Below are positions 3,933-47,757 of a DNA stretch of 50,199 nt, piece after piece. The stretch is taken from the NCBI GenBank assembly GCA_018652955.1, contig JABIBA010000014.1, positions 1-50,199 of the forward strand, read 5' to 3'. The stretch comes from Candidatus Peribacter sp. GTDB taxonomy: Bacteria; Patescibacteriota; Gracilibacteria; Peribacterales; Peribacteraceae. Positions within the stretch are counted from its first letter, which is position 1; each line of letters begins with the position of its first letter. A model generated the notes under the pieces. That model worked only from the letters and a program-made list of their open reading frames with translations. It was not told where the DNA came from and ran no database searches. Both the position numbers and the translations under genes were made by a program.

Positions 3933-3982
3933 AAAAGTCAACCCCTTTATTTAATTAGATATCTTAGCACATGTTTCTCTAT

Positions 3983-4224
3983 GTCACTTTTCAGATGAAA
4001 AGTAACCAAAAATCTTAGCCACTGATGTGAACGAGGCAGACTGCCTGTTTGAGGGCGAAGAACTACGTACACTCTAGTGCTATAGCGACGAATACTAAGT
4101 TGCCGTAGGCAAACACAGTGACCTTAGCTGAGGAGCGCACTCTAAAGAGCAGTACTATTACTTCGCACGAGTCCAGTCTGCCTTGATTTTTTTGGTTCGT
4201 TTTTGCATCAAGGCAAAAATGAAC
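3983..4224 (-). repeat. dispersed structured element, copy 1
   Basis: Minus-strand oriented, filling most of the topA-fic gap. The 5' hairpin is GTTC-AT-TTTTGC, loop CTTGAT (4212-4207), GCAAAA-AC-GAAC. The complement ATCAAG follows at 4187-4182. The shared block TTCTTCGCCCTCAAACA is present. GGCAGACTG near the 5' side pairs with CAGTCTGCC near the 3' side. The end is the terminal hairpin GTTACTTTTC-ATCT-GAAAAGTGAC (4006-3983). Shorter than copies 2 and 3 and divergent in the middle, with the same order of parts. No protein-coding potential supported. Confidence 0.8.
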
Positions 4225-4242
4225 AAAGAGAAGATATTTGAA

Positions 4243-7246: not shown

Positions 7247-7795
7247 ATGGACGCCAAGCTTATCGAAGAAACTGTCGGCAACTTGCTTAAGGAGCTAGAG
7301 CTCCCATTTGATTCTATTACCGTAGAAGAACGTGAGGATATGACCCATGCAGAGATTACCTCTTCTATGGCTAGCCGTATCATTGGTTGGCATGGAGAGA
7401 CACTGAATTCTATTCAGCATCTTGCGAAGTCTATTATTCGCCAGCAAGGGAAGCTCGAGCGTAGCCCGTTTTTGGTTCTCGATGTTGATGGCTACCGCGC
7501 CTCTCAGGAAGAAAAGGTAAAGAAGATCGCATCTGCAAAAGCTGACTTTGTCCGTCGTAGTGGAAGCCGCGTGGCTCTTGCTCCGATGAGTCCGTACTTC
7601 CGTCGCATTGTGCACTTGTATGTTGCCAACACTCCAGAGCTCTCAGATCTTACAACAGAAAGTAGCGGAGACGGAGACTACCGACAGGTTGTGCTACGAC
7701 TCAAAGATGAAGCTGCAAAAATACAAGATGGCGAAGAACTTGCTCCGGTGATCGTCGAAAGTACAGACGATGGACTCGCAAACTTAGATATCTAG
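7247..7795 (+). CDS. jag: Jag/KhpB-type RNA-binding protein (KH-R3H)
   Basis: A 182-aa protein of the SpoIIIJ-associated family (Jag, also called EloR or KhpB), cytoplasmic RNA-binding proteins linked in Firmicutes to cell elongation and peptidoglycan synthesis control. The KH core is SRIIGWHGETLNSIQHL (about residues 43-59), followed by an R3H domain with RRIVH and NTPELSDLTTESSGDG. The family's long N-terminal Jag domain is absent, as in short forms. It is not next to yidC/rnpA, where it often lies, but stands alone after hup. TATTCT lies 12 nt before the ATG, so any leader would be only a few bases. Confidence 0.9.
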   Translation: MDAKLIEETVGNLLKELELPFDSITVEEREDMTHAEITSSMASRIIGWHGETLNSIQHLAKSIIRQQGKLERSPFLVLDVDGYRASQEEKVKKIASAKADFVRRSGSRVALAPMSPYFRRIVHLYVANTPELSDLTTESSGDGDYRQVVLRLKDEAAKIQDGEELAPVIVESTDDGLANLDI

Positions 7796-7879: not shown

Positions 7880-10534
7880 TTAGCGACGTTTACGTCTGAT
7901 CCATCCTATCCCCGCAGCCGCACCTGCGCCTATTACTGCTACCGCTGCAGGACCAGTATCTCCTATAGGTGCTTGCTTAGCGATGAGCGGTTGTAGCTGT
8001 GCAAGTGGAAGTTGATACGGAAGTTGGTTGTAGCTTGGAATCTGAGGGAATCCAACTTGGCTGTATGGATTGGCAAATTGATTGGACTGCGTTGTTGCTT
8101 GTGCTGCTACTTCTGTAGGAGCAGATTCTTCGAATGCAATTTGTGTTGGCTCCTCTTGTTCTTTTCTGCAGAAGCGGTCGCATCCGTCTTTACTCAATCT
8201 GTTGCCGTCATCACAAGTTTCTGAAGAGTCGAGGACGCCATCTCCACAACGGGCAGTATGGCAATTGGGTCTACATAATGCATCAGGAGAGGTGGAGTTT
8301 TGAGTTCCTTTGTCACACTCTTCTCCAGCGTCTACGGTACCGTCACCACAGGTCGTAGATAAGAAGAGGCAGTTCAAACAACCAAACGGAAGGCTGCTGT
8401 CATGCGTAGATGACTCACACTGTTCTCCAAGTAGAGACTGCACGACGCCATCGCCACAGATTCCAATTTCAAGAAGACAGGTCGTATTACAACCATCGCC
8501 GTCTCTGCGATTACCATCATCACACTCCTCTTGCTCTTCTAGAGCACCGTTACCACAGATTGATGCTGCTGCGACGAGGGTTTCCTCTGCAAGTACAGAC
8601 GCAGAAGAAGAGCTACTACTCTCCTCATTTACTAGCACCAGCTGTAACAATGATGACGCTGAACTCTGGGCAACAATAGTGCGCTTAAAGGAAGATGATG
8701 CGATGCTAATTCGTGAGAAAGAAAAGGAAGAGGAAGATGGAGTAACAGAGAGTACCGAAGACTCAGCCGAAGAGGATGGAAGTGCAAGAGAAGTAGCGGA
8801 GGATGATGAAGATGAGGAAGAAAATGACGATGAGGAAGAGGAAGAGGAAGAGGAACTCAATGGCGTAGATGACAAAAGAGATAGCAAAGACGATGAAAAG
8901 ACAGATGAGGCAGTGGAGCTGATGTTGGTTGAGGAGTTGATATCGGTGGAGGAGACAGTGGTCGTGGAAGTGGTAGTGGCAGAAGAAGCAGAAGGGGAAG
9001 ACGTGTCTTCTGAAACTACTGATGCAGATGAAGGAGATATAGAAGCGGAACTATTTCCTCCTCCCTGATCTCCTCCTTGGTCTTCACCATCATCATTTTC
9101 TCCTCCACACGTGAAACCCGTTGACAAACGAACTGCAACACACTGACAGGTAAAAGGATCTATCGTAAAAGAGTTATGCGCTATTGGCGTACCATCTGGG
9201 CAGAGCTCAGGCTGTCCAACACCACAGAGTGGTGCAGGAAAACACCGAGGGCCACCACCACCATTTGTACCATCGTCTTCGTCCTGAGGTAGTGGACATA
9301 GGTCTGATATACAATTTCCGCGACAGCAATTAGGCTTGCTAGCCCCTGTTCCACATTCATCACTCTCCATGCATTGCTCATAGCATTCTAATGATTCTTC
9401 ACCGCCTCCGCCGCCGCCCTCTCTTCGCAGATCACATTCGCATACACAATCTGCAACACAGCTCTCGATAAAGTCCTCCTGTTCTGCAACGCCGTCAAAT
9501 TCGTATTCATCAGATGAGTCTCGGCAATCAGATCTGCAGCTTGCAGTAAAGTTAGCTGATGAGACTGTTGGACCATCGTCAGCACATTCATACAGCGAAA
9601 CGCACTTTTTACCTATCAAGTGCTTGTCCGACGCGCATGGTGCACACACCACTTTTCCAGCATCATTTCTTTGCCATATTTTTGGCCCCTTGCAGATACA
9701 TGGACATACAGCTTTTCGTGGATTCTTTGGTATGCCACCTAATGCAGTGCAATCTACCGGTGGAATATCTTTTGCGATAAGCATCGAGGCCAACAAGTTA
9801 TTTGGAGGAAATTGCGCAATATCATCTGGAAAAATCTCTTCATCATCTTCCAGAGGAGAGCACACCACATTCGTGCAGTCTTCATTGCACAGAGACATAG
9901 GGTCTGAATTATCGAATCCTAAATCACACTCTTCAAAACCTTCTACTTTGCCATTTCCACATACAAAAGCCTCACAAGCATCTCCAATACCATTGTAATC
10001 TTCATCCTCTTGTCCTGGATTTGCGACATCCGGACAGTTATCCGAGCTTGCACATACCTTATCGTTATCGGTGTCTTTGCAATAATCACTAGAGCAAGCG
10101 CTGGTCTCACACTCAGACCGTGAAGGCCATGAGCCCAATGAAGGATCACATTCTGCAGATCCTGATGTGCTCGAACACGCGTCGCACTCTACTTCTTCTG
10201 GTGACCAGCATTCATTGGAGGTGTCGTCATTACAACACACCATAAGATAGTCATACTCATCACAGTTATAATCTGGATTCTCCATATTCTCATTGCATCC
10301 ACCTTTTTCAACAAATTTACCCCAATCACATTCAAGATCAAGATGATCGCTGCACCTGAATTCTTCACTAAGACACTCGGCACTACAACCATCTCCACTT
10401 GTAGTATTGCCATCGTCGCACTCTTCCTGTCCATCTATAAAATTATTTCCACACAGTGGCCCACACTGCGCTACACACTCTGCCTCTATACTGGCTTTAC
10501 TCTGGCTGCCATACCACCAATAGGAAGTATGCAC
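7880..10534 (-). CDS. large Cys-rich surface protein (DUF4215 and thrombospondin type-3 repeats), N-terminus apparently missing
   Basis: An 884-aa extracellular-type protein. Near the N-terminus are DUF4215-like repeats (CGNNFIDGQEECDDGN) and a thrombospondin-like calcium repeat (DNCPDVANPGQEDEDYNGIG). Long Cys-rich stretches follow, then a poly-Ser/Thr linker of about 150 residues, four more CGDG/CGNG...ECDDGN repeats, and a C-terminus GDTGP, hydrophobic segment, RRKRR that resembles a wall- or membrane-sorting signal. The best start is GTG 10534, but the frame stays open and protein-like upstream (DQVCPADG) to a TGA at 10627-10625 without a start codon or signal peptide. The 5' end is therefore probably truncated or frameshifted; an atypical gene lies directly upstream. 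Confidence 0.7.
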   Translation of the reverse strand: MHTSYWWYGSQSKASIEAECVAQCGPLCGNNFIDGQEECDDGNTTSGDGCSAECLSEEFRCSDHLDLECDWGKFVEKGGCNENMENPDYNCDEYDYLMVCCNDDTSNECWSPEEVECDACSSTSGSAECDPSLGSWPSRSECETSACSSDYCKDTDNDKVCASSDNCPDVANPGQEDEDYNGIGDACEAFVCGNGKVEGFEECDLGFDNSDPMSLCNEDCTNVVCSPLEDDEEIFPDDIAQFPPNNLLASMLIAKDIPPVDCTALGGIPKNPRKAVCPCICKGPKIWQRNDAGKVVCAPCASDKHLIGKKCVSLYECADDGPTVSSANFTASCRSDCRDSSDEYEFDGVAEQEDFIESCVADCVCECDLRREGGGGGGEESLECYEQCMESDECGTGASKPNCCRGNCISDLCPLPQDEDDGTNGGGGPRCFPAPLCGVGQPELCPDGTPIAHNSFTIDPFTCQCVAVRLSTGFTCGGENDDGEDQGGDQGGGNSSASISPSSASVVSEDTSSPSASSATTTSTTTVSSTDINSSTNISSTASSVFSSSLLSLLSSTPLSSSSSSSSSSSFSSSSSSSSATSLALPSSSAESSVLSVTPSSSSFSFSRISIASSSFKRTIVAQSSASSLLQLVLVNEESSSSSSASVLAEETLVAAASICGNGALEEQEECDDGNRRDGDGCNTTCLLEIGICGDGVVQSLLGEQCESSTHDSSLPFGCLNCLFLSTTCGDGTVDAGEECDKGTQNSTSPDALCRPNCHTARCGDGVLDSSETCDDGNRLSKDGCDRFCRKEQEEPTQIAFEESAPTEVAAQATTQSNQFANPYSQVGFPQIPSYNQLPYQLPLAQLQPLIAKQAPIGDTGPAAVAVIGAGAAAGIGWIRRKRR

Positions 10535-10646
10535 ACCGTCCGCAGGGCATACTTGATCAAGATAACTATCATCTCCAGTGTACGGATATAGTGAGTGTGC
10601 TCGGTGAGGATCAAGTCCTCTTAGTCAACAAAGGGTCGTAACACGG

Positions 10647-21555: not shown

Positions 21556-22191
21556 TTAGTTGTCGTCGTCTGCTTCGTCGGAGTCGTTTTCGTCGTCATC
21601 TGATGTGTCTTCATCATCGTCAGAGTCATCATCGTCGTCGGAGCTGTCATTATCATCGTCATCATCGGAGCTGTCGTCATCATCATCGGAGCTGTCGTCG
21701 TCATCATCGGAGCTGTCATCATCATCGAAGAAGTCATCGAAGTCTGCATCGTCATCATTGTGATTGTCTTGGAAGTCGTCATCGTCTGAGTTGTCGTCAT
21801 CTTCTATCGAAGTATAATTATTGTCATCATCTTCGTAGTAGCGATAGTCGTAAATGTCGTCGTCGTCAGAGTCGTCATCATCTCGATTGCCATATCGCCT
21901 CTCTCTTGAGAGATAGTCACGGTCGTATGTTGGATAGTATGACCGCAAGCGATCTGGGTTGTAGTTACTGGTATCTATATACTGCTCGATCATACAAATG
22001 CCCTGAGCGTTGTAGTACAAACAGCGTTGTGAAGGCCCGTTAGAATAACTGGCACTCGCTGTACGGTTTCGTAAATTACTTCCTCCAGTCCGAGAGTACT
22101 GCACATTCTCGAAAAATACGGCTGCATTCACTGGGTGTGCTGCAGTGAGAACCAAAAGAACCGTGATAAGTGAAACGAGGCGTGTGCTCAT
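21556..22191 (-). CDS. secreted Asp/Ser-rich acidic protein
   Basis: A 211-aa protein with a signal peptide (STRLVSLITVLLVLTAAHPVNA) and a Tyr/Arg/Asn-containing middle with two cysteines (CLYYNAQGIC). The C-terminal half is very acidic and low in complexity, mostly Asp with Ser, including repeated SSDDDDD units, with a net charge far below zero. Such tracts bind calcium or other cations, or act as electrostatic spacers; no function is known. The start is ATG 22191 rather than the in-frame TTG at 22200. The tract is encoded by near-perfect 21-nt DNA repeats. Confidence 0.7.
   Translation of the reverse strand: MSTRLVSLITVLLVLTAAHPVNAAVFFENVQYSRTGGSNLRNRTASASYSNGPSQRCLYYNAQGICMIEQYIDTSNYNPDRLRSYYPTYDRDYLSRERRYGNRDDDDSDDDDIYDYRYYEDDDNNYTSIEDDDNSDDDDFQDNHNDDDADFDDFFDDDDSSDDDDDSSDDDDDSSDDDDDNDSSDDDDDSDDDEDTSDDDENDSDEADDDN
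21640..21730. repeat. trinucleotide-based tandem repeat in the acidic protein
   Basis: Units of about 21 nt containing GGAGCTGTC and runs of ATC/GTC recur head to tail and encode SSDDDDD. Because units are multiples of three, slippage would change protein length without frameshift. Confidence 0.7.
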
Positions 22192-22238
22192 AGGAAGCAA
22201 ACGCTATCACGTACTACCAAAGACAAGCAAGATTTACC

Positions 22239-22661: not shown

Positions 22662-22766
22662 AGCGTGTTATATTACTATATTTTAGAGGTGAGTCAAGTA
22701 TTATATAACTAAGATTACCTGTCTTATTGCTACTTTCCAGATGGAAAAAGGCTTCGCTGTCTTCTT

Positions 22767-23136
22767 GTCCCTTTTTTCTTGATAAAAAAGGGACGAAAAA
22801 ATCAAGACGAGCGCAGACTCGTGCGAAGCAATAAAAGAAGTATTGTTCTGTGCGCACGTTCAACCAAGTTCCCTTCGGGACTTGGCATTCACGCGCTATA
22901 TGAGAAAAATGAGTCTTTTCTTCGCCCTCAAACAAGTGCGCTCATCATTACGGATGATGAACTCGTTATGCCACTGTAGTGTGAACGAAGATCACCCCGC
23001 AGTACTATCAATCTAGCGACGCAGTGCGAAGCTGCGCAGCAGACTTCGTCCAGGAGCGCTCGGGGTTGTTCTGTCTTCATGTCTTCGTTCACATCTGTGG
23101 CAAAGATTTTTGGTTACTTTTCATCGGAAAAGTGAC
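22767..23136 (+). repeat. dispersed structured element, copy 2
   Basis: A 370-nt noncoding element. It opens with a perfect 11-bp hairpin GTCCCTTTTTT/AAAAAAGGGAC (22767-22777, 22784-22794) whose 6-nt loop CTTGAT is complementary to ATCAAG at 22801-22806. Next come CGAG/CTCG and AAGTCCC-type hairpins, the block TTCTTCGCCCTCAAACA, and a closing stem GTGAACGAAGA/TCTTCGTTCAC. It ends with the terminal hairpin GTTACTTTTC-ATCG-GAAAAGTGAC (23113-23136). The first 225 nt differ from copy 3 at only five positions. It lies 74 nt upstream of a co-oriented gene and fills most of the 550-nt gap 22662-23210. Confidence 0.88.
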
Positions 23137-23210
23137 ATAAAGAACAAGCTGATTTCTTTTCTCCTTCGCAATTCCCTAAACAACGAGTATACTTAAGCTT
23201 ACCTTCTCTC

Positions 23211-26426: not shown

Positions 26427-26460
26427 GAATAATGGCCGCCTTTTTCTTATGGTCTCTCTT

Positions 26461-26831
26461 GTCCCTTTTTTCTTGATAAAAAAGGGACGAAAAAATCAAG
26501 ACGAGCGCAGACTCGTGCGAAGCAATAAAAGAAGTATTGCTCTGTGCGCACGTTCAACCAAGTTCCCTTCGGGACTTGGCATTCACGCGCTATATGAGAA
26601 AAATAAGTCTTTTCTTCGCCCTCAAACAAGTGCGCTCATCATTACGGATGATGAACTCGTCATGCCACTGTAATGTGGACGAAGATCACCCCGTAATAGA
26701 GCCAAATATAGTGACGCCGTGCGAAGCTGCGCAGCAGACTTCGTCCAGGAACGCACAGATACATTCTGTCTCTATTACTTCGTCCACATCTGTGGCAAAG
26801 ATTTTTGGTTACTTTTCATCGGAAAAGTAAC
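26461..26831 (+). repeat. dispersed structured element, copy 3
   Basis: A 371-nt near-copy of 22767-23136. The same 11-bp hairpin (26461-26471/26478-26488) with loop CTTGAT, the complement ATCAAG (26495-26500), the conserved block and the terminal hairpin GTTACTTTTC-ATCG-GAAAAGTAAC (26808-26831, perfect here). The closing stem reads GTGGACGAAG/CTTCGTCCAC, changed on both sides compared with copy 2 but still paired, and an extra GTAATAGAG/CTCTATTAC stem adjoins it. It ends 21 nt before the serS start. Confidence 0.88.
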
Positions 26832-26839
26832 ATATTCTG

Positions 26840-46281: not shown

Positions 46282-47757
46282 ATGAAAGCTTCATTTATCG
46301 CCGCTATTAATCAAATCTGTTCCGAGAAGAACGTTGGACCAGACCAAGTACTCGACGCCATTAAACAGGCTATCGCTACTGCGTACCGTAAAGACTACGG
46401 TAACAAGGAGCAGGAAATTCGTGTAGACCTCGAAGAAGGTCGAGACGAGCCTGTCATCTTACTTGTTAAAGAAGTAGTAGAAGAAGTAGAGAACGAAAAC
46501 TTTGAAATCTCTTTGTCTGAAGCAAAGAAAATTAAGAGCGACGTCGAAGAAGGGGATGAGATCACTATGGACGTAACTCCAGAAGGATACGGTCGCATCG
46601 CAGCTCAGTCTGCGAAGCAAGTAATTTTGCAGAAGCTACAAGAAGCTGAGAAGCAGAGTCTCTACGACATGTTTAAAGACCGTGAGCACGAACTTCTTAC
46701 TGCAACGGTGACAAAGGTCGAACCAAACTGGGTAACGCTTGAGATCGAAGGTATGACCGTTTCTATGCCATGGCGAGAGCAGATCCCTGGAGAACACTAC
46801 TACACTGGTAAGCGAATTAGAGTGTACCTCGATACTGTTGAGCAAACGGGTAAAGGACCTCAGCTCCGTATCAGCCGTACTCACCCTAACCTTGTTAAGA
46901 AACTTCTTGAGCTTGAAATTCCAGAAGTCCGTAACGAAGATGTAGAGATCCGTGCGATCGCACGTGATGCAGGTTTCCGAAGTAAGGTAGCCGTCAGCTC
47001 TAACGCTCCAACTATCGACCCTATCGGTGCGTGTGTTGGACAAAAAGGTGTGCGTATTCAAGCGGTGATGGATGAGATTAACGGTGAGCGTGTCGATATG
47101 ATCGAGTGGAGTGATGATCCTATTAAGTTGATCTCAACAGCACTCCAGCCTGCTGCAATCTCTGCAGTTATTATCGTAAATGACACCGAGCACCTCGACG
47201 ACGAGGACCGCAAGGTTAAGAAGCGTGCTGCGGTATTCGTAGAAGAGGCTCAGCGTCCAATGGCTATTGGTCGCAAGGGACAGAACATTCGTCTAGCAAC
47301 AGACCTTACAAGCTTCGAGCTGGATATGTACAACTACGAAGAGCTTCCTGCATTTAAGGCGAAGCTTGCAGAGCTACGTGGTGAAGAAGTAGAAGTAGTA
47401 GAGTTTGAAACAGACGAAGACGGAGAGATGACTGTTAAAGGAGAGTCTGACGGAGAAGAAGCAGAAGTTGCAGAAGAAGATAAAGGAAAAACTACTGCAA
47501 AACCTAAGTCTGCAAAAAAGCCTGAGCCAAAGAAAGAGGTGGCATCAGCCTCCGCCGAGGCTACGGCCGACAAGGAGGTGACCGAGGGTGCCGATGATAC
47601 CGAGGGTGCCGATGATACCGAGGGTGCCGAGGTGGCATCAGCCTCCGCCGAGGCTACGGCCGACAAGGAGGTGACAGAGGAAGCACCAGCTGAAGAAGTA
47701 ATAGAAAAGGAAATCGAAGAAACCAAGGAAATCGAGGAAGAGAAGAAGGCTGAATAA
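46282..47757 (+). CDS. nusA: transcription termination/antitermination factor NusA
   Basis: A 491-aa RNA polymerase-associated factor modulating pausing, termination and antitermination. The N-terminal domain begins MKASFIAAINQICSEKNVG; then an S1 domain, and KH1 and KH2 with GACVGQKGVRIQAVMDEI and MAIGRKGQNIRLATDL. The last 120 residues are an acidic, low-complexity tail containing two copies of a palindromic coding repeat (VASASAEATADKEV) around GADDTE units. Tails of this type are not part of the core family. A leader hairpin precedes it. rimP and infB are not adjacent, unlike in most bacteria. Confidence 0.96.
   Translation: MKASFIAAINQICSEKNVGPDQVLDAIKQAIATAYRKDYGNKEQEIRVDLEEGRDEPVILLVKEVVEEVENENFEISLSEAKKIKSDVEEGDEITMDVTPEGYGRIAAQSAKQVILQKLQEAEKQSLYDMFKDREHELLTATVTKVEPNWVTLEIEGMTVSMPWREQIPGEHYYTGKRIRVYLDTVEQTGKGPQLRISRTHPNLVKKLLELEIPEVRNEDVEIRAIARDAGFRSKVAVSSNAPTIDPIGACVGQKGVRIQAVMDEINGERVDMIEWSDDPIKLISTALQPAAISAVIIVNDTEHLDDEDRKVKKRAAVFVEEAQRPMAIGRKGQNIRLATDLTSFELDMYNYEELPAFKAKLAELRGEEVEVVEFETDEDGEMTVKGESDGEEAEVAEEDKGKTTAKPKSAKKPEPKKEVASASAEATADKEVTEGADDTEGADDTEGAEVASASAEATADKEVTEEAPAEEVIEKEIEETKEIEEEKKAE
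47536..47675 (+). repeat. coding palindromic repeats in the nusA tail
   Basis: A 47-nt unit occurs at 47536-47582 and 47629-47675, identical and in frame, 93 nt apart. Its core AGCCTCCGCCGAGGCT is a perfect hairpin (6-bp stem, CGCC loop). Between the copies are 18-nt units GAGGGTGCCGATGATACC repeated about 2.5 times. The G+C is much higher than the flanks. Confidence 0.85.

Follow-up and report, generated by a model that had tools for sequence, protein, structure and literature searches.

A structured repeat of Candidatus Peribacter is probably a small mobile DNA element made of two facing copies of one hairpin-and-pseudoknot unit

What kind of element is it that occurs three times, as a strongly folded intergenic sequence, in the window of Candidatus Peribacter DNA analyzed here (the whole stretch, 50,199 nucleotides in length)? 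An earlier note took it for a single RNA or switch that opens with a hairpin, P1, and closes with a second, terminal hairpin. The repeat itself is genuine and well conserved. The best reading is that it is probably a small mobile DNA repeat consisting of two facing copies of one folded unit, a hairpin plus a pseudoknot. A non-autonomous repeat of the BIME/REPIN kind, with a new fold, is the best fit and has a good chance of being the right one.

All three copies lie within a few nucleotides of the places first given for them, two on the plus strand and the third on the minus strand (Table 1). The loop CTTGAT and the downstream ATCAAG are present in 3/3 copies, and the blocks GACTCGTGCGAAG and TTCTTCGCCCTCAAACA, reported as conserved, and the GTTACTTTTC hairpin are all found in the element. 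The P1 stems that had been described exist as hairpins. Copy 1 has the stem GTCCCTTTTTT/AAAAAAGGGAC; that of copy 3, GTTCATTTTTGC/GCAAAAACGAAC, extends beyond the earlier description and contains a single A.C mismatch. Copy 3 is internally deleted, and the head is all that remains of its unit B. Full elements are small, non-coding, and intergenic, with inverted ends that start with TTGT. When the 382-nt element was folded and compared with shuffles, z was -7.1 on the plus strand and -6.3 on the other strand, a fold much stronger than chance would give.

Table 1. Coordinates of the three copies and of the parts of copy 1, numbered from the first letter of the window.
Feature	Position	Strand	Remarks
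Copy 1, complete two-unit element	22763..23144	.	Orthologous site empty in G002
Copy 1, unit A	22766..22960	+ (inward reading)	Profile and CM matches, alignment, structure; folding strand probably the complement
Copy 1, unit A, hairpin P1	22767..22794	+	22767-22777 with 22784-22794; loop CTTGAT 22778-22783
Copy 1, ATCAAG, partner of the P1 loop in the pseudoknot	22801..22806	+	Covaries across genera
Copy 1, unit A, P2 and inner parts	22809..22943	+	P2 = GAGCGCA 22809-22815 / TGCGCTC 22937-22943; covariation
Copy 1, unit A, inside P2	P3 22823-22828 / 22920-22925	+	Conserved GACTCG and CTCAAACA strands, arms P4-P5; covariation
Copy 1, unit B, inverted homologue of unit A	22968..23138	-	A profile match E 5.7e-38; folding strand probably +
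Copy 1, unit B, head	23105..23136	+	P1 23113-23122 / 23127-23136, loop ATCG, pseudoknot strand GAT 23105-23107
Copy 2, complete two-unit element upstream of serS	26457..26834	.	Unit A 26460-26650 +, unit B 26668-26833 -; G001 has the B half at the same place
Copy 3, downstream of topA	about 3975..4226	. (element -)	Unit A complete 4226-4045 -; unit B cut to head 3981-4038 +

The window holds other repeats as well. Two inverted tRNA-Trp(CCA) genes, at 2065-2169 and 2718-2822, lie within a 105-bp inverted repeat that is 89% complementary. Nine repeats with a 21-nt period (TCGTCATCATC-like) occupy 21566-21814 within the minus-strand ORF 21556-22200, whose sequence suggests an acidic or serine-rich low-complexity protein. 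At 47536-47680, within ORF 46282-47757, is a 52-nt repeat with two copies 93 nt apart that are 98% identical.

What the first reading overlooked is that the two halves of the element are related, the right being a diverged version of the left in inverted orientation. Two homologous units, each about 165-200 nt long, make up a full copy and are inverted relative to each other: A reads inward from the left end, B from the right. When profiles were built from the split element, that of unit A matched B on the opposite strand with an E of about 1e-38, and reciprocally, and A and the reverse complement of the right half are homologous along their length, though diverged. Because A and B are inverted homologues, the opening hairpin and the “terminal hairpin” are the same part of two outward-facing units; the latter exists, but as unit B's own P1 and not as a separate part, and a single RNA element was rejected on this ground. 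Units occur solo, paired, truncated, or mixed with other repeats. Solo one-headed units are common, and B units without A are frequent, next to a different REP-like module. A second repeat family (GACCTCACCCCCGACCCC..GGGGTCGGGGGTGAGG), seen at L244 (1186-1391) and downstream of unit B at L018, L023, and L027, joins solo B units and stands in for the element at one orthologous site in G002.

Four parts make up each unit: the hairpin P1; a pseudoknot that joins the P1 loop to a strand about 7 nt past the hairpin; a helix P2, which encloses an internal loop conserved as ACTC/TCAAACA; and arms that vary. The structure of unit A (P1, pseudoknot, P2, P3, P4, P5) was drawn by hand and set against shuffled and slid versions. 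In the hand structure, 86.6% of cells are paired compared to 36-45% when it is slid, the covariation score is 0.270 compared to 0.130 in shuffles, and 25 pairs have changes on both sides. Among 95 units of many different genera, changes in the P1 loop are matched by changes in the pseudoknot strand, as CTTGAT/ATCAAG, AGAT/ATCT, GAGAT/ATCTC, AACGAT/ATCGTT, AACAT/ATGTT, AACT/AGTT, GCAT/ATGC, and others, giving at least six complementary versions. The P1 stem sequence varies between genera, while the P1 structure and the pseudoknot are kept. On the evidence of these alignments, the pseudoknot and the helices are maintained by compensatory change, which bears out the loop-downstream pairing that the earlier note had proposed. 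Some reduced derivatives drop the inner arms and retain P1, the pseudoknot, and P2 (e.g., L005 and the G004 copy at site 1), so this head is taken as the essential part; in the short units of G087, P2 has a sequence of its own. The element matches no Rfam family at gathering score, in line with the original impression that it belongs to no known RNA class, and the window as a whole gives only tRNAs. The best permissive matches in the element are sub-threshold, mostly to microRNA models, and none is credible; with Rfam lacking a match, a riboswitch or other known RNA was rejected.

Which strand folds can be judged from the wobbles. Interior non-Watson-Crick pairs in P1 were counted stem by stem in 104 units. 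On the inward strand, there are 39 A.C cells and 0 G.T, cells that are not independent since relatives share changes; counted as distinct genome-and-position cases, they come to 12 versus 0. The six-base pseudoknots on the same strand have 9 A.C and 0 G.T. On the opposite, outward-reading strand the A.C cells read as G.T wobbles, and the tRNAs in the same sequences, used as a control, have 25 G.T and 0 A.C. The A.C in GTTCA..CGAAC is found repeatedly, in four Patescibacteria groups, a phage contig, and a Persicobacter plasmid. Since the wobbles are confined to the outward-reading strand of each unit, that strand is probably the one selected to fold, opposite to the one that was folded at first.

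Wobbles of this kind would fit folding as single-stranded DNA (ssDNA) and as RNA alike. One could consider a non-coding or cis-regulatory RNA with a structure of its own, which spread through the genome by copying and whose fold works as RNA, be it as a protein-binding site, a stability element, or a switch. The anatomy is RNA-like: the pseudoknot covaries, several helices make up the fold, and the strands of the internal loop are conserved. Strand-specific wobbles, too, are as expected of RNA. However, one element has units facing both ways, sites are found empty or with opposite orientations at one site, and the orientation of the gene upstream of a unit is nearly balanced (50 same versus 41 opposite, with approximate, ORF-based gene calls), without an mRNA-like bias. 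Nor did the search for promoters and terminators give anything convincing: P1 is AT-rich with a T-run on neither strand, two weak sites were found elsewhere where 0.7 are expected, and a role as terminator or promoter was rejected because the matches were only weak. An RNA copied around the genome is thus unlikely, and the single RNA or switch does not hold against two inverted homologous units, gene orientations without bias, and clean empty sites.

Dispersed copies count in favor of the preferred reading, a mobile DNA repeat. The search of the whole genome and of relatives showed the repeat to be interspersed throughout the genus, with many of its copies partial. The covariance model (CM) has 14 matches in the host genome, matches in 21/74 genomes of the order (up to 18 units per genome), and matches in 17 of the 380 sampled Patescibacteria genomes, 10 of these outside the family. 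Ca. Peribacter and further genera of the same family carry multiple copies of the unit, which recurs in other Patescibacteria families; a pattern search also matched Ca. Peribacter UBA6535 and Peregrinibacteria co234_bin51. Checked by eye, all but one of the examined loci from the 380-genome sample share the same head. The CM match L195 (G352) looks spurious and was rejected as a true unit. Spread beyond Patescibacteria amounts to a few cases from limited collections: in a BLAST of heads against phages and plasmids the sole match is a plasmid of Persicobacter (Bacteroidota), and eleven further viral contigs, one of which resembles Haemophilus phage HP1, have a head with the ACTCGC..GCTCAAACA core. 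The phage contig IMGVR_UViG_3300001264_000004 (L219), with terminase-like and portal-like ORFs as judged by eye, carries two unit heads, at 7294-7378 and 10530-10609, in the same orientation and each after a gene.

Mobility was judged from orthologous sites in related species. For example, the site of copy 1 is empty in G002, with 16 bp between homologous flanks, and in G004 it holds an A unit with a collapsed B. The contig-9 copy is absent from G003, where the flanks stay homologous precisely up to the element's edge; in G002 the same point is occupied by a palindromic pair of 206 bp that is unrelated to the element. The contig-10 copy is missing from G003 and G001 and has the opposite orientation in G004. 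Empty sites, opposite orientations, and replacement by an unrelated repeat argue that the element is mobile. An orthologous site may have the element or lack it, and the elements are modular and scattered in many copies. In G003, the site of copy 1 (L164, site 1) retains just one P1 hairpin, palindromic and flanked by mirrored TCTCTA/AAGAG, possibly the footprint of an excision or collapse.

Insertion points follow T/C-rich sequence, and by approximate, ORF-based gene calls the units lie between convergent genes in 29 cases versus divergent genes in 10. This avoidance of divergent promoter regions counts in favor of the mobile repeat. Enrichment between convergent genes would suit a domesticated, BIME-like nucleoid or mRNA element, formerly mobile and retained for gyrase or IHF-like binding or for 3'-end protection, as would the occupation of some sites in several species or genera. 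Yet with presence patchy (21/74 genomes of the order) and gain and loss free at orthologous sites, domestication is improbable. The few sites occupied in different genera could nevertheless reflect conserved function instead of hot spots, which counts against the mobile-repeat reading.

Inverted ends beginning with TTGT, on elements that are small, non-coding, and intergenic, also recall MITEs of the classical kind, which a DDE transposase moves by way of their terminal inverted repeats. As to such repeats, the units are inverted homologues but diverged. Against a MITE, no target-site duplication is visible in the empty-site comparisons, solo units with a single head are common, and what is conserved between genera is the P1 structure and the pseudoknot, not the P1 stem sequence. 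Judged from the junctions and the units themselves, a MITE is very improbable here. Of the transposon remnants that the earlier note had allowed for, the inverted units and the mobility were found, and the target-site duplications were not.

The search for what moves the repeat was confined to Y1 transposases, TnpB, and reverse transcriptase. There is no Y1 transposase in the host genome (G000, 99% complete) or in G011 and G061, both also unit-rich. TnpB (PF07282) is not found over the cut-off in 23 genomes, which include all 11 unit-bearing genomes tested, nor reverse transcriptase (PF00078) in most unit-bearing genomes, being absent from the eight genomes G000, G002, G004, G061, G011, G087, G055, and G082. 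Mobilization by IS200/RAYT from within the host was rejected because G000 has no Y1 and, in relatives, neither the IS200 copies nor the remaining Y1 genes carry a unit, and retro-mobility was rejected because those eight genomes lack a reverse transcriptase. Near the Y1 genes in three genomes of another genus, g55 (L203, L204, L205), lie TAGCAGCG.. or GTAGCAGCG.. hairpins that resemble canonical GTAG REPs. No protein adjoining the units recurs beyond shared orthologous loci. An autonomous parent was rejected as well: convergent units 1.8 kb apart (L093, L094) flank ordinary genes (mraY; plain ORFs), and the recurring neighbors are the shared orthologous loci, with no transposase.

Transposon ends that bear a guide RNA could also be imagined, in which an outward transcript ends in P1 and runs into the flank as the guide, as with the omega RNA of TnpB. 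The outward strand does have a pseudoknot and a hairpin abutting the flank, but TnpB is above the cut-off in 0/23 genomes, units face head-outward at both ends, and Rfam omega or HEARO is unmatched, leaving such a guide highly unlikely.

For the mobile repeat, the mechanism proposed is that the fold would form in just one of the strands, with the outward-reading one the most likely, and probably in ssDNA that replication exposes. An enzyme provided in trans may recognize the P1-pseudoknot-P2 head by its structure and move units into T/C-rich intergenic sites; such an enzyme would be none of the Y1/RAYT, TnpB, or reverse transcriptase systems of this host. One could go further and see here an undescribed class of mobile repeat, with a hairpin-pseudoknot-helix fold in one strand, hosts in Patescibacteria, Bacteroidota, and Pasteurellaceae-like bacteria, and movement by an enzyme outside Y1, TnpB, and reverse-transcriptase systems, a tentative proposal and a somewhat doubtful one.

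The REP-type repeats known so far are short hairpins that bear a tag and are linked to a Y1 transposase. The present element resembles REP, BIME, and REPIN sequences in being intergenic, multicopy, and non-autonomous, in having hairpin units that stand solo and as inverted dimers, in forming mosaics with other repeats, and in its strand-specific fold. It differs from them in that the hairpin foot has no GTAG or CGTC tag, the alignments having the T/C-rich TTCTCTTTG before P1 and CAAAAA after it; in that units reach about 200 nt, with a pseudoknot, further helices, and the hairpins outermost; and in that this host has no Y1 gene and the Y1 loci of relatives no unit. Because two defining features of REPs were tested for and neither was found, it is not classed as one. 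The REP tags (GTAG/CGTC) and inverted dimers are described in PMC3733652 and PMC6006769.

Like MITEs, BOX, and Correia elements, these are small, non-coding, modular mobile repeats, but here no target duplication or parent transposase was found, and the fold, including the pseudoknot, is kept by compensatory change. The omega RNAs of TnpB and IscB are likewise structured nucleic acids at transposon ends with a pseudoknot; here the unit-bearing genomes tested have no TnpB, and the units face outward at both ends. Literature searches found no description of such an element.

The nearest published lead is subclass 2.6 of the Bacteroidetes TnpA-REP (RAYT group 5), which is reported to be flanked by atypical structures without GT[AG]G that are repeated in the genome (PMC6006769). 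The likeness, drawn from the description only, lies in these structures being atypical, free of GT[AG]G, repeated, and found in Bacteroidetes, with units of the present kind also occurring in Bacteroidota, whereas 0 units lie near any Y1 gene recovered here. What the repeat adds to the known systems is a larger fold, with a pseudoknot that covaries, conserved among hosts that lack a Y1 transposase and belong to different genera and distant families of ultra-small bacteria. With more than 100 homologous units indexed, and with empty sites and strand-specific wobbles at hand, which strand folds and what moves such orphan repeats become directly testable, and the units may turn out to be the “atypical structures” reported beside RAYT group 5 of the Bacteroidetes.
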